Assembly (NCBI GenBank): GCA_905480575.1
Contig: CAJQQZ010000031.1
Coordinates: 1 to 64,000, forward strand
Direction: 5' to 3'
Origin: an uncultured Alphaproteobacteria bacterium
GTDB taxonomy: Bacteria; Pseudomonadota; Alphaproteobacteria; UBA7985; CAJQQZ01
Length of the DNA: 64,000 bases
In this document: positions 23,496 to 30,044 of the stretch, in pieces
Numbering within the stretch: the first letter of the stretch is position 1
Layout: every line of letters begins with the position of its first letter
Notes under the pieces: generated by a model
The model's input: the letters and a program-made list of their open reading frames with translations, nothing else
Database searches by the model: none
Told to the model about the DNA's origin: nothing
Made by a program: the position numbers and the translations under genes

Positions 23496-24266
23496 TCAGG
23501 AGCCCAAATAAGAAGTAAAAAGTGCCAGTAAGGCGATCTCAATAATCTGTTGTAAGGCACCAAGTGTGTCACCAGTATGGCCACCTACTTGACGTTGGGA
23601 AATCCATGCCCAAATCGTTAAAACAACAAAGCAGAGAACGCTCGCCCAGAGTGCTGGACCAAAGCCGAGGCTTATCCAAATGAACAACAGGCTAAGCCCT
23701 AAACCTAAGCCGGCGTTGCTCACAGTTACCTTACCCGCTTTCGAGGCTACTCCCGAAGTTTTGGCCGGAGCAGTGTAAGCCATGAGAACAGGCATTGATG
23801 AGCGCGAAAGAGAGTGAACAGCAACCACTATGAGAGCGAGTGGAAGCAAATCTCCCTCCATCAAGGGAGCTAAAAGAGCGACCTTCAGCAGAGCCCCCAA
23901 AACCAAAGCCAAGACGCCATAAGTGCCGATACGGCTGTCTTTCATGATCTCTAATTTGCGTTCACGGTTATGTCCGCCGCCAAATCCGTCACAGCAATCT
24001 GCTAGGCCATCTTCATGCAGTGCGCCAGTCACGAGGGCTGTGAATGCAACCACCAGAACGGCACTTGTTAGTTCAGTCAACCCCAGCACCTGGAGGAGCC
24101 AAACGAAGCCAGCAACTAACGCACCTATCAATGCACCAACAATTGCAAAACAATAAGCACTGTCAGCTAAGCTCTGATCAAGTTGCCGTCGAATGATGGG
24201 GAGGGGCAGTCTCGTCAAAAAGGTAACGGCGAGATAGAGGTGCGTGAGAAATTTAAGGAGAAACAT
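23496..24266 (-). CDS. cobS: Adenosylcobinamide-GDP ribazoletransferase (cobalamin synthase)
   Basis: The 256-residue integral membrane enzyme joins adenosylcobinamide-GDP with alpha-ribazole in the last step of cobalamin synthesis. Family hallmarks are FLTRLPLP near the N-terminus, GALHEDGLADCCDGFGGG near 80-97, and RIGTYG in the following loop, with about six hydrophobic segments. Length is normal. Together with the following phosphatase and the divergent cobT it makes a compact nucleotide-loop assembly locus. No cobalamin riboswitch is visible in the 125 nt to cobT. Confidence 0.95.
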   Translation of the reverse strand: MFLLKFLTHLYLAVTFLTRLPLPIIRRQLDQSLADSAYCFAIVGALIGALVAGFVWLLQVLGLTELTSAVLVVAFTALVTGALHEDGLADCCDGFGGGHNRERKLEIMKDSRIGTYGVLALVLGALLKVALLAPLMEGDLLPLALIVVAVHSLSRSSMPVLMAYTAPAKTSGVASKAGKVTVSNAGLGLGLSLLFIWISLGFGPALWASVLCFVVLTIWAWISQRQVGGHTGDTLGALQQIIEIALLALFTSYLGS

Positions 24267-24390
24267 TTTGATCGCAGACGTTAAATTCTGATTGCTTAGG
24301 GCAAAAGAACCTGCTTTTTACGCCCAAACATCAGAGGCTTATAAAGCTCTCGAAGAATCGACGCAACCACCTCAGCCAAGGGAATACGAA

Positions 24391-25419
24391 GTGTCTACTG
24401 CTGCCTCACTCGCTTCATTTGATGAAATCCGCAAACTTTTCCCGCAATTGCCAGGCCCGGACCTGGAAGCAGCAACGGCAACAGCAGAACGTGAAGTTCA
24501 GTTGACGAAACCTGCTGGTTCGTTGGGGCGCCTTGAGGAGCTCGTTTCTTGGTTGGCAACTTGGCAGGGAAAGCACCCACCAGCGATAGAACATCCAAGG
24601 ACTGCCGTTTTTGCGGGCAACCACGGTGTCGCGGCGCGTGGCGTTTCAGCCTTTCCGGCAGAAGTTACCAAGCAGATGGTTGCAAACTTTCTTCATGGTG
24701 GTGCCGCTGTTAATCAACTCTGCGGGTTTGCCGATGCTGATTTGAAGGTTTACGAACTGGATCTGGACAACCCGACGGACGACTTCACTGCTGGTCCGGC
24801 CATGTCCGAGGAGGACTGTGTCAAAGCCATGGCTTACGGCATGACAGCGGTTGAACCCGGTGTTGATCTACTTTGCTTGGGCGAAATGGGAATTGCCAAT
24901 ACGACGTCGGCGGCAGCGATTTCGGCTCTGCTTTTTGCTGGAACTGGCGACGATTGGGCTGGCCCTGGTACAGGTGTAGAAGGCGAGGCGCTGGCGAACA
25001 AAAAAGCGGTCATTGATGAAGCGATTGCCTTGCACGCCGAGGCCAAATCCGACGGCTTAGAAGTCTTGCGCCGTGTTGGAGGTATGGAGTTAGCAGCAAT
25101 TGTTGGTGCTATTCTTGCTGCTCGTATGGCAAGGGTGCCGGTTGTTCTTGATGGGTTTATCTGCACGGCCGCGGCAGCAGCGCTAGAGGCCAGCTGCAAA
25201 GGAGCATTGGATCACTGCATTGTAGCGCATAGTTCGGCAGAGCCCGGACATAAAGCACTGGTTGAGAAACTTGGTAAAGAACCTTTGTTCGATTTTGGCA
25301 TGAGGTTGGGTGAAGCCTCGGGCGCTTCTTTGGCGGTACCAATCCTAAAGGCGGCAGTTGCGTGCCATTCTGGGATGGCTACTTTTGCTGAAGCGGGGGT
25401 CGCGGGTAAGTCTGGCTGA
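24391..25419 (+). CDS. cobT: Nicotinate-nucleotide-dimethylbenzimidazole phosphoribosyltransferase
   Basis: CobT makes alpha-ribazole-5'-phosphate from nicotinate mononucleotide and dimethylbenzimidazole. I choose GTG 24391 (MSTAASLASFDEIRKLF), preceded by AAGGGAA with 7 nt spacing. It gives 342 residues, the normal length, whereas the open frame starts with a TTG at 24292 and adds 33 residues. Recognisable parts are KPAGSLGRLEEL, FAGNHGVAARGVSAFPAEVT, GEMGIANTTSAAA, the LRRVGGMELAAIVGA segment and the C-terminal FDFGMRLGEASGA. It is divergent from cobS. Confidence 0.92.
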   Translation: MSTAASLASFDEIRKLFPQLPGPDLEAATATAEREVQLTKPAGSLGRLEELVSWLATWQGKHPPAIEHPRTAVFAGNHGVAARGVSAFPAEVTKQMVANFLHGGAAVNQLCGFADADLKVYELDLDNPTDDFTAGPAMSEEDCVKAMAYGMTAVEPGVDLLCLGEMGIANTTSAAAISALLFAGTGDDWAGPGTGVEGEALANKKAVIDEAIALHAEAKSDGLEVLRRVGGMELAAIVGAILAARMARVPVVLDGFICTAAAAALEASCKGALDHCIVAHSSAEPGHKALVEKLGKEPLFDFGMRLGEASGASLAVPILKAAVACHSGMATFAEAGVAGKSG

Positions 25420-28032: not shown

Positions 28033-28617
28033 ATGAAAAAGAACTTGTTCCTTATTTTTGTCACGGCGACGACGCTCTTGAACCTTACATCTTTGAGCCA
28101 GGCGCATAATTGTACACGTGAGTACATTCCGGTTTGTGGACTTGTTCAGGTTCAGTGTTTCACGACACCTTGCCCACCTCTATGGATGGATTTCTCAAAT
28201 GCCTGCTTAGCTAAGGCAGCAGGCTCTGTTGAGCAAAGACTCGGCAAATGTGGTGCTTTAGAAGGAACAGCCGGTACGGTGGGTAAGAAAACAACCTTGG
28301 CTCGCTCATATCCGGCTCGGGTCGAGCAGCTCTCTCTTTTGGTCGCGACATCGCAACCGCCGCAGTACATCCTTCGTGTAACGGGGCAATTGATGAATGG
28401 ATGTGAGACGCTGGGGGAACCGGCTCAGCAAAAACTAGGCAATGATTTTATTGTCTCGTTGCCAGCTGGCGTGCCGATAGAGCGCGAAGGTATGATGTGT
28501 TCCATGGCCTTGCGACCGTTTGAAACCCAAATCAAGCTTGACGTGCCGCCAGAACAAGACATGTCAAAACCATTCTCGGTTATCGTCAATGGACGCCGGA
28601 CCCAATTCGGAAAGTAA
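28033..28617 (+). CDS. Secreted cysteine-rich protein with a Kazal-like N-terminus
   Basis: A 194-residue protein with a clear signal peptide (about 1-24, ...SLSQAHN). Residues 27-73 hold six cysteines (27, 35, 42, 47, 58, 73) around YIPVCG, which resembles the start of Kazal-type protease inhibitor domains but with a different second half (QCFTTPCPPLWMDFSNACLAK). The remaining 120 residues form a domain I do not recognise, with two more cysteines near 120 and 155. Neighbours give no role. An inhibitor function is only a guess. Confidence 0.65.
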   Translation: MKKNLFLIFVTATTLLNLTSLSQAHNCTREYIPVCGLVQVQCFTTPCPPLWMDFSNACLAKAAGSVEQRLGKCGALEGTAGTVGKKTTLARSYPARVEQLSLLVATSQPPQYILRVTGQLMNGCETLGEPAQQKLGNDFIVSLPAGVPIEREGMMCSMALRPFETQIKLDVPPEQDMSKPFSVIVNGRRTQFGK

Positions 28618-28625
28618 ATCGGTAG

Positions 28626-29246
28626 CTAAACAGGGCTGTTTGCTGTGCTGACGCCAATCAACGCATCGACATTGACGAGTTCGGCCAACTTTTCTTCTGT
28701 CCAATCCTCTGTTCCCTGAGGGCGTTCAGGCAACACCATATAACGCATGTCTGCTGTGCTGTCGTGGACACGAACTTCCATGCTATCCGGTAATTCAGTA
28801 CCAAATTCCTTGAGTACCGCGCGGGGTTCATTGACGGTTCTCTTGCGATAGTTCTTAGACTTGTACCATTCGGGAGATGGCCCCAACAATAAAACGGGGT
28901 AACAAGAGCAAAGTGTGCAAACGATGACGTTGTGAACATCGGGCGTATTCTCAACAACCAAGAGCTGGGCCGCACCGATATCGAAGCCCATTTCCTTTGC
29001 AGCGGATGGACCATTAGATAACAGCCGTGATTTGTAGTCTGGATCAGTCCAGGCACGCGCCACGATGGCGGCCCCGTTGCCGGGCGTTCTTTTACTCATT
29101 GCTGCGACTTGCTTAGTAACGTCGTCTGCAGTGAACAGGCCTTTTTCGATGAGAAGCTCGCGAAGGGCTTCAGATAGAACTTGCGCTTCTTCCGGCATAC
29201 CTTCGTCGATTTCAATAGGACTGTGGTCGTGATGATCGTGAGGCAT
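28626..29246 (-). CDS. nthA: Nitrile hydratase-type alpha subunit (cobalt class)
   Basis: The 206-residue protein has the metal-binding motif VCTLCSC with Cys110, Cys113 and Cys115. Thr in the second position is typical of cobalt-containing nitrile hydratases and thiocyanate hydrolase, in which two of the cysteines become oxidised. It continues with SPEWYKSKNYRKRTVNEPRAVL, as in the family. The N-terminus is unusually His-rich (MPHDHHDHSP). It converts nitriles to amides, or thiocyanate to carbonyl sulfide. The following motif CYPVLLLGPSPEW departs from the common CYPWPVLG-type. It is the third gene of a leftward operon with a split beta subunit. Confidence 0.9.
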   Translation of the reverse strand: MPHDHHDHSPIEIDEGMPEEAQVLSEALRELLIEKGLFTADDVTKQVAAMSKRTPGNGAAIVARAWTDPDYKSRLLSNGPSAAKEMGFDIGAAQLLVVENTPDVHNVIVCTLCSCYPVLLLGPSPEWYKSKNYRKRTVNEPRAVLKEFGTELPDSMEVRVHDSTADMRYMVLPERPQGTEDWTEEKLAELVNVDALIGVSTANSPV

Positions 29247-29249
29247 AGC

Positions 29250-29543
29250 TTAACTCCCTGCTGGTTCTAACCAGTGATCGTATATTTCGATCTCAATCGT
29301 ATCGTGAGATGGGCCGGAATAGCTTGGCCACAAAGATTTCTGTTCAAATCGAACACGGTAAAGAGTTTGGGCGGGTAGGCCATCTTTACCGTAGGCTAGC
29401 TGTTCTGGGTTTGGGAACTTACCACAAATGCGCTCCACGATGCCTTCATGTCCACGGCAATAGATAGGCGTTCTTATGTGGCCGGAGGGGTTTCGAGTGT
29501 CTACTTTGACACGTTCACCCACGGTAAATCTGTGCTCACTCAC
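29250..29543 (-). CDS. Nitrile hydratase beta subunit, C-terminal half
   Basis: A 97-residue protein that corresponds only to the C-terminal SH3-like barrel of nitrile hydratase beta: FTVGERVKVDTRNPSGHIRTPIYCRGHEG, then LYRVRFEQKSLWP and IEIEIYDHWLEP. In classical enzymes this is fused to the N-terminal helical half. Here the halves are separate genes that overlap by 4 nt, as in thiocyanate hydrolase and the three-subunit toyocamycin nitrile hydratase. It precedes nthA by 3 nt. Confidence 0.88.
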   Translation of the reverse strand: MSEHRFTVGERVKVDTRNPSGHIRTPIYCRGHEGIVERICGKFPNPEQLAYGKDGLPAQTLYRVRFEQKSLWPSYSGPSHDTIEIEIYDHWLEPAGS

Positions 29544-29851
29544 AAACTGGCCTCCATACGCTCTCTGACTTGTTCAATACGCTGGTCTAATTCATTTTGC
29601 GTGATGTGACCTTTCTCAACCATAAGCGCCGCGATGGAGTAAGCCCATTTGCCGTAGTAACGTTCCTTGTCGTAACGATCTTCGCCCAGGGTTTCGATAC
29701 CGCGGCGCAGCTCGTCAATTGTCATGACTTTGGCTTTGCTAGAGAGAAGCCTCAACATCGCGTCGACCCGTAACTCCCAGAGACTGTATTCGTAGTGAGT
29801 TTGATCAACCTCACCGCCTGGTTCACCGCCGATGTCATGATAGGATTTCAT
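29540..29851 (-). CDS. Nitrile hydratase beta subunit, N-terminal half
   Basis: A 103-residue helical protein matching the N-terminal half of nitrile hydratase beta: MKSYHDIGGEPGGEVD, then MTIDELRRGIETL and YYGKWAYSIAALMVEKGHI. The arginines of DELRRGIE probably include the one that hydrogen-bonds the oxidised cysteines in the enzyme. The same fold is used by nitrile hydratase activator proteins (P14K type), so a cobalt-delivery role is an alternative. No separate activator gene is visible nearby. It is first in the three-gene operon. Confidence 0.85.
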   Translation of the reverse strand: MKSYHDIGGEPGGEVDQTHYEYSLWELRVDAMLRLLSSKAKVMTIDELRRGIETLGEDRYDKERYYGKWAYSIAALMVEKGHITQNELDQRIEQVRERMEASL

Positions 29852-29916
29852 TTTCGCTTCTCTCAGCTATTGTCTTGTTAAAAGAATGCTCCATTTTGGA
29901 GCCAAAGCCAAGATAA

Positions 29917-29961
29917 AGCAGTTTCTGTTTTTATAGAATCACCATGAAAATAGAAACTGCT
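29917..29961. repeat. Inverted repeat between the nitrile hydratase operon and the dehalogenase
   Basis: Arms at 29917-29931 and 29947-29961 are complementary over 15 positions (10 perfect pairs AGCAGTTTCT/AGAAACTGCT, one G-T, four A-T), with a 15-nt spacer. It lies in the middle of a 193-nt divergent intergenic region, 66 nt from one start and 84 nt from the other, so an operator for a dimeric regulator is a reasonable reading; no regulator gene is adjacent. Confidence 0.55.
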
Positions 29962-29981
29962 ACAATATCAACTCGTTGCGC

Positions 29982-30026
29982 AGGCGTTTCGCTCTTCACC
30001 TGCTTCAGGTTATTCGCGAAACGCTT
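29982..30026. repeat. Nested symmetrical inverted repeat upstream of the dehalogenase
   Basis: An outer pair GCGTTTCGC (29984-29992) and GCGAAACGC (30016-30024) encloses an inner pair ACCTG (29998-30002) and CAGGT (30006-30010) with a 3-nt loop. The two internal spacers are both 5 nt long (TCTTC and TATTC). It ends 18 nt before the GTG start. It could be a cis-regulatory RNA hairpin or a double operator. Confidence 0.6.
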
Positions 30027-30044
30027 TAGATTTAAGGAAAATCC

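Follow-up and report, generated by a model that had tools for sequence, protein, structure and literature searches.

The window, a stretch of 64,000 nucleotides at the start of contig CAJQQZ010000031.1 from an uncultured alphaproteobacterium, contains three intact open reading frames (ORFs) that run on the minus strand from 29851 to 28626 in the order βN-βC-α. βN (29540..29851; 103 amino acids, 12.1 kDa) corresponds to the N-terminal helical half of a nitrile hydratase (NHase) β subunit and βC (29250..29543; 97 amino acids, 11.1 kDa, GTG start) to its C-terminal barrel half, while α (28626..29246; 206 amino acids, 22.8 kDa), which has a His-rich N-terminus, is the metal-binding catalytic subunit. 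The genes for βN and βC overlap by 4 nt (GTGA), α starts 3 nt past the βC stop, and Shine-Dalgarno-like sequences precede both internal starts (GGAGG ahead of βC and AGGGAG ahead of α). This arrangement indicates that the three genes very probably constitute a single, translationally coupled operon. The intergenic spacer up to a divergent HAD gene (29852..30044, assigned to no strand) is likely the promoter region; a promoter scan of this spacer returned consensus matches that were not above chance.

Family identity of the three proteins

The three proteins match Pfam profiles with scores far beyond chance: βN scored 74.3 bits against PF21006 (NHase_beta_N; cut-off 21.5), βC 77.2 bits against PF02211 (NHase_beta_C; cut-off 27.7) and α 264.3 bits against PF02979 (NHase_alpha; cut-off 27.2). 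Together with the ORF positions and the 4-nt overlap, these domains bear out the initial annotation of the locus, which had described a β subunit divided between two overlapping genes, one for the helical and one for the barrel half, and the order βN-βC-α. Against the NCBIfam equivalog for NHase α (TIGR01323) the α subunit scored 246.0 bits, just under the cut-off of 249.85. Sequence matches in the PDB comprised NHase α chains and thiocyanate hydrolase (SCNase) γ for the α subunit, and NHase β C-terminal halves and SCNase α (2dd4_A) for βC; the top match of βN was SCNase β (2dd4_B, E 6e-10). The AF2 model of α (pLDDT 86) has NHase α and SCNase γ as its top Foldseek matches, and the all-helical model of βN (pLDDT 81) resembles NHase and SCNase β chains, with the best TMq, 0.75, obtained for SCNase β. 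On these features, a CxLCSC α domain accompanied by β N- and C-terminal domains with the equivalents of Arg52 and Arg157, the locus is assigned to the NHase/SCNase superfamily.

The SCNase matches are relevant to an alternative identity, in which the chains would be the β, α and γ subunits of a thiocyanate hydrolase that converts SCN- to carbonyl sulfide and ammonia. The three-part split is alike, and the SCNase genes have the same order as those in the window. In addition to having SCNase β as its top PDB match, βN contains RR and YYGKW motifs that resemble the RR and YYGRW of SCNase, and α displays SPEWYxSxNYRxR past the metal motif, as does SCNase γ. The α subunit, however, scored only 211.3 bits against the SCNase γ equivalog (TIGR03887), and thus did not reach the threshold of 291.45; the residue and tree data described below also bear on this identity.

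Catalytic residues and Val118

The VCTLCSC motif reported in the initial annotation is present at 28902..28922 (minus strand, reading 28922-28902), where it forms a cobalt-type metal-binding sequence at α residues 109-115. In alignments with SCNase and the Pseudonocardia β subunit, references that agree letter for letter with the PDB sequences, βArg52, βGlu56, Tyr68 and Trp72 correspond to R49, E53, Y65 and W69 of βN, and the equivalent of βArg157 is located on βC. The roles of the NHase catalytic residues are established, and the Cys triad, βArg52, βGlu56, Tyr68, Trp72 and βArg157 are all conserved in the window proteins, which points to an intact catalytic centre. The PDB entries matched to α and βN include mutants of several of these residues.

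The residue after VCTLCSC-YP is Trp or Phe in activator-dependent NHases and Arg or Lys in the split enzymes and SCNase. At this marker position, which aligns with αTrp116 of NHase and γArg136 of SCNase, the window has Val118 (codon 28893..28895, minus strand); Val occurs in 13 loci only, the subclade to which the window belongs, and was found in no characterised enzyme among the sequences compared. PDB entries 3vyh (NHase αW116R) and 3vyg (SCNase R136W) are swap mutants at exactly this position. The replacement of γArg136 by Val argues against an SCNase, and Arg alone is in any case not diagnostic of that enzyme, as it is also present in split enzymes that carry a nitrile hydratase annotation, some of which share the gene layout of characterised NHases. 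In βN, the window genus and its order-mates contain Gly70-Lys71 in place of Glu-Arg. At a further position, β 53 (Pseudonocardia numbering), the split group and SCNase have Arg or Lys, and activator NHases have mostly His, Phe or Tyr.

Two features that had been singled out as unusual proved to be only partly so. The loop after the metal motif is atypical in that Val118 marks a small subclade, although LLGxSPxW-like forms also occur in SCNase and its relatives. The His-rich α N-terminus is indeed present, but is shared with SCNase γ, other split enzymes and several activator-type NHases; counts of this feature are partial, as 47 loci in which the α anchor pattern had no match were left out. 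The idea that the His-rich segment is a special cobalt store in place of an activator was rejected, since activator-type NHases have it too and it is therefore not distinctive.

Phylogeny and distribution of related loci

The phylogeny of α, which had been proposed as a check on the annotation, places the window in the split, activator-less clade. In a tree of 66 α sequences, compiled without ScNHase (the Streptomyces canus enzyme) and eukaryotic NHases, the split enzymes and SCNase are set apart from the activator-dependent NHases with support of 100/100, and the window falls within the split group. The Phe-type sequences (Phe after CYP) form a group at 100/100, and SCNase clusters with a Roseomonas plasmid sequence (L126) on a separate long branch, also at 100/100, on the split side of the tree. 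The Val-type rows constitute one group in the 66-α tree (100/93) and hold together in a smaller tree with 13 Val-type rows (85/77), the bootstrap of both trees being not fully settled. The 13 loci of the Val118 subclade are distributed across several alphaproteobacterial families.

In view of the separate branch of SCNase and L126, the profile score and the pocket residue, thiocyanate hydrolase was discarded as the main interpretation. SCNase, furthermore, comes with a dedicated activator, P15K (Kataoka 2006, as cited in PMC3511329), and no such gene lies beside the window genes. Thiocyanate hydrolysis by the window enzyme is thus unlikely, and its identification as an SCNase highly improbable.

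Arg, Lys or Val occupies the marker position at 127 loci, the great majority of which have the order βN-βC-α; 126 of these loci have no linked activator, and an extra βN-like gene is present only at the SCNase-like L126. Trp or Phe is found at 20 loci, with an activator in 19 and a one-piece β in 18. These counts, for which flanks of mostly 1.5-4 kb were inspected, represent non-independent events, as the loci were picked by similarity to the window and many are close relatives. The nearest 80 loci in species genomes belong mostly to Rhodobacteraceae, Kiloniellales and other marine Alphaproteobacteria, with some in Betaproteobacteria and Nitrospinota, and an α match (activator-type NHases included) was present in 103 of 289 genomes that evenly sample the class. 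Planktothrix and Streptomyces plasmid records display the order βN-βC-α; rhizobial plasmids display βC-α-βN, and genes for aquaporins and cobalt transporters often accompany them.

Variants of the architecture were also observed. L127:2947-4623 and L025 are Trp-type NHases that have a split β and retain an activator, indicating that β splitting and activator loss are separable. At L126:3095-4744 the β halves are fused in one gene, the βN-like gene follows downstream, and the vicinity includes genes for CbtAB and TauE/SafE. Single-ORF fusions of βN to α through a His-rich linker (L177:4445-5500(+), L178:4452-5513(+), L180:3762-4883(-), L181:2071-3156(+) and L182:3813-5051(-)) come from three genomes, all belonging to the same class-mate genus (f28/g28). 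The βC domain is absent from the stretches examined around these fusions; each genome has only one recognisable βC, located elsewhere and, in two of them, within separate split loci (L179 and L183). Judging from these sequences, the fusions would either lack the βArg157 partner or receive it in trans.

Genomic context

The operon is surrounded by genes for a HAD type II protein, a CDGSH protein, MmcB and the cobalamin proteins CobS and CobT. The same neighbourhood recurs in L129, from another genome of the genus, and not in order-mates or other relatives; in the order-mates TRAP transporter, RidA-like or ABM genes are nearby, varying by lineage. As synteny beyond the operon is confined to the genus, the neighbourhood reveals no pathway. 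No amidase, cobalt transporter or aldoxime dehydratase was found as a conserved neighbour at the compared loci, so that gene context lends no support to nitrile metabolism, and there is no biosynthetic or deazapurine nucleoside cluster around the operon, where the neighbours are of housekeeping type. The genes for CobS and CobT (23496-25419) are divergent to the NHase operon, at a distance of about 4 kb. A 194-amino-acid protein with a Cys-rich N-terminal half, which is probably secreted and has no Pfam match, is encoded at 28033-28617, convergent with the NHase operon, and is kept in L129.

In the rest of the genome, a cobalt transporter search returned no CbtA and a single transporter of the NicO type, encoded on a contig without linkage to the operon. 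Several amidase-signature genes are present, none of which adjoins the NHase operon; one match (L169, G000:C48:1821-3160), which contains two TGA codons in frame and adjoins a second fragment, is possibly a broken gene or an assembly error. Contig C108 encodes a second, canonical NHase, with α, one-piece β and activator in a row (L003:3836-5599), in which Phe, not Trp, follows CYP. The retention of a separate canonical NHase argues for divided labour, and is compatible with a specialised or biosynthetic role for the window enzyme, similar to that of ToyJKL, in which its substrate would be a single nitrile or isonitrile metabolite and the Val118 subfamily would have a substrate of its own. This proposal, which refines the assignment as a nitrile hydratase, is also in keeping with the spread of the subclade over several families and with the choice of its marker position for swap mutagenesis. 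Conversely, no biosynthetic cluster is present at the operon, the neighbours vary between lineages, and support for the subclade drops to 85/77 with more Val-type rows. The refinement is therefore possible rather than probable. That the alphaproteobacterial Val118 subfamily represents a third specificity class, beside Trp-type NHases and the Arg-type enzymes that include SCNase, with a physiological nitrile or another C-N triple-bond compound new to this superfamily as substrate, is doubtful.

Proposed function and maturation

The profiles, tree and gene order support the initial description of a three-gene NHase/SCNase-family enzyme with a split β subunit and no dedicated activator. The window is likely to encode a functional, activator-less Co-type nitrile hydratase with three subunits, matured via its own βN and with an altered substrate pocket. 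The subunits would assemble as (βN-βC-α)n, probably as a dimer of heterotrimers, in which Cys110, Cys113 and Cys115 of α, together with backbone amides, are predicted to hold low-spin Co(III). Cys113 would be oxidised to sulfinate and Cys115 to sulfenate, and the oxidised cysteines would be held by βArg52 and βArg157, here contributed by two chains. The metal centre is expected to hydrate a nitrile to the amide, and the change of the pocket Trp/Arg to Val118, with G70-K71 in βN, may shift substrate preference.

Cobalt may be loaded with the help of βN, as with AnhD in ScNHase, in which case no separate activator would be needed. In ScNHase cobalt enters α without an activator, and an AnhD-containing complex is the metal and subunit-swapping chaperone (PMC7329996). 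The activator and βN are homologous along their length (hhalign probability 98), which makes a double role for βN plausible, and, by analogy with ScNHase, it is reasonable to propose that βN doubles as a cobalt chaperone. Additional similarities were seen between the last helices of βN (29540-29851) and the N-terminal helices of α (28626-29246; hhalign probability 92.5, 38 columns) and between the last helices of the activator (L003:5246-5599) and the same α helices (probability 84, 38 columns), suggesting that βN, activator and α may share a helical-hairpin module.

Alternatively, the enzyme could be matured in trans, with the activator being borrowed from the paralogous NHase. As had been noted initially, no activator gene lies beside the three genes, and the sole recognisable NHase accessory protein of the genome is the one on C108 (G000:C108:5306-5524; 46 bits, just at the cut-off). 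Activators, however, are generally specific for their own α. The lack of a linked activator at 126 of the 127 Arg/Lys/Val loci, and the ability of ScNHase to function without one (PMC7329996), are also at odds with maturation in trans, which is quite improbable; maturation via the enzyme's own βN is preferred.

Comparison with known systems

Canonical Co-NHases, such as those of Pseudonocardia thermophila (1ire) and Pseudomonas putida (3qxe) as well as the C108 paralogue, share the fold, the metal motif, βArg52 and βArg157 with the window proteins, but have mostly a one-piece β, an activator gene, Trp or Phe at 118 and mostly His, Phe or Tyr at β 53. SCNase of Thiobacillus thioparus (2dd4) is like the window enzyme in its split β, the His-rich N-terminus of its catalytic subunit and the RR and YYGxW motifs, and differs in its separate long branch, γArg136, extra N- and C-terminal extensions and the activator P15K. 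Toyocamycin nitrile hydratase (TNH, ToyJKL) is an (αβγ)2 heterohexamer with subunits of 21.2, 10 and 11.4 kDa (PMC8574189), sizes that match the 22.8, 11.1 and 12.1 kDa of the window proteins. ToyJKL serves the toyocamycin biosynthetic pathway (PMC12648386), a dedication that contrasts with the window, which lacks such a cluster.

ScNHase (AnhD-AnhE-AnhA) is active on acetamiprid without an activator and has subunits of 10.41, 11.35 and 21.33 kDa (PMC7329996). It resembles the window in its order βN-βC-α, its β subunit in two partial peptides, the lack of an activator gene and its similar sizes, a likeness that is based on published layout and sizes, not on sequence. In a Streptomyces homologue with the same layout (L120), Arg stands in place of the window's Val, and YYERW in place of YYGKW. 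ScNHase has been likened to the eukaryotic NHase (PMC7329996). Eukaryotic NHase fusions run β-α, the two parts being joined in opisthokonts by a His-rich link (PMC3323583), and the bacterial βN-βC-α operon mirrors this order. The three-subunit NHase of Microvirga flocculans, in which the α gene lies between the two β halves (PMC11573777), and the rhizobial loci L121, L124 and L128 likewise have a split β and no activator; the rhizobial proteins keep the signature residues of the window except at 118, and their order, βC-α-βN, differs.

The presence of the same three-part design in ScNHase, Microvirga flocculans, ToyJKL and SCNase shows that the window layout, which had been considered unusual, is already known, and with more than 100 related loci it is common in Alphaproteobacteria. 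Activator-less split-β NHases, which have been studied in few bacteria, thus constitute a large group that occurs in Alphaproteobacteria of marine and soil habitats and in other lineages. The group is recognisable by simple sequence marks, namely Arg, Lys or Val following CYP and a basic amino acid at β 53, which offer a test for NHases expected to mature without an activator and are useful for heterologous expression. Within this group a small Val-type subgroup stands out, the point of interest being its substrate, which is open to direct assay.
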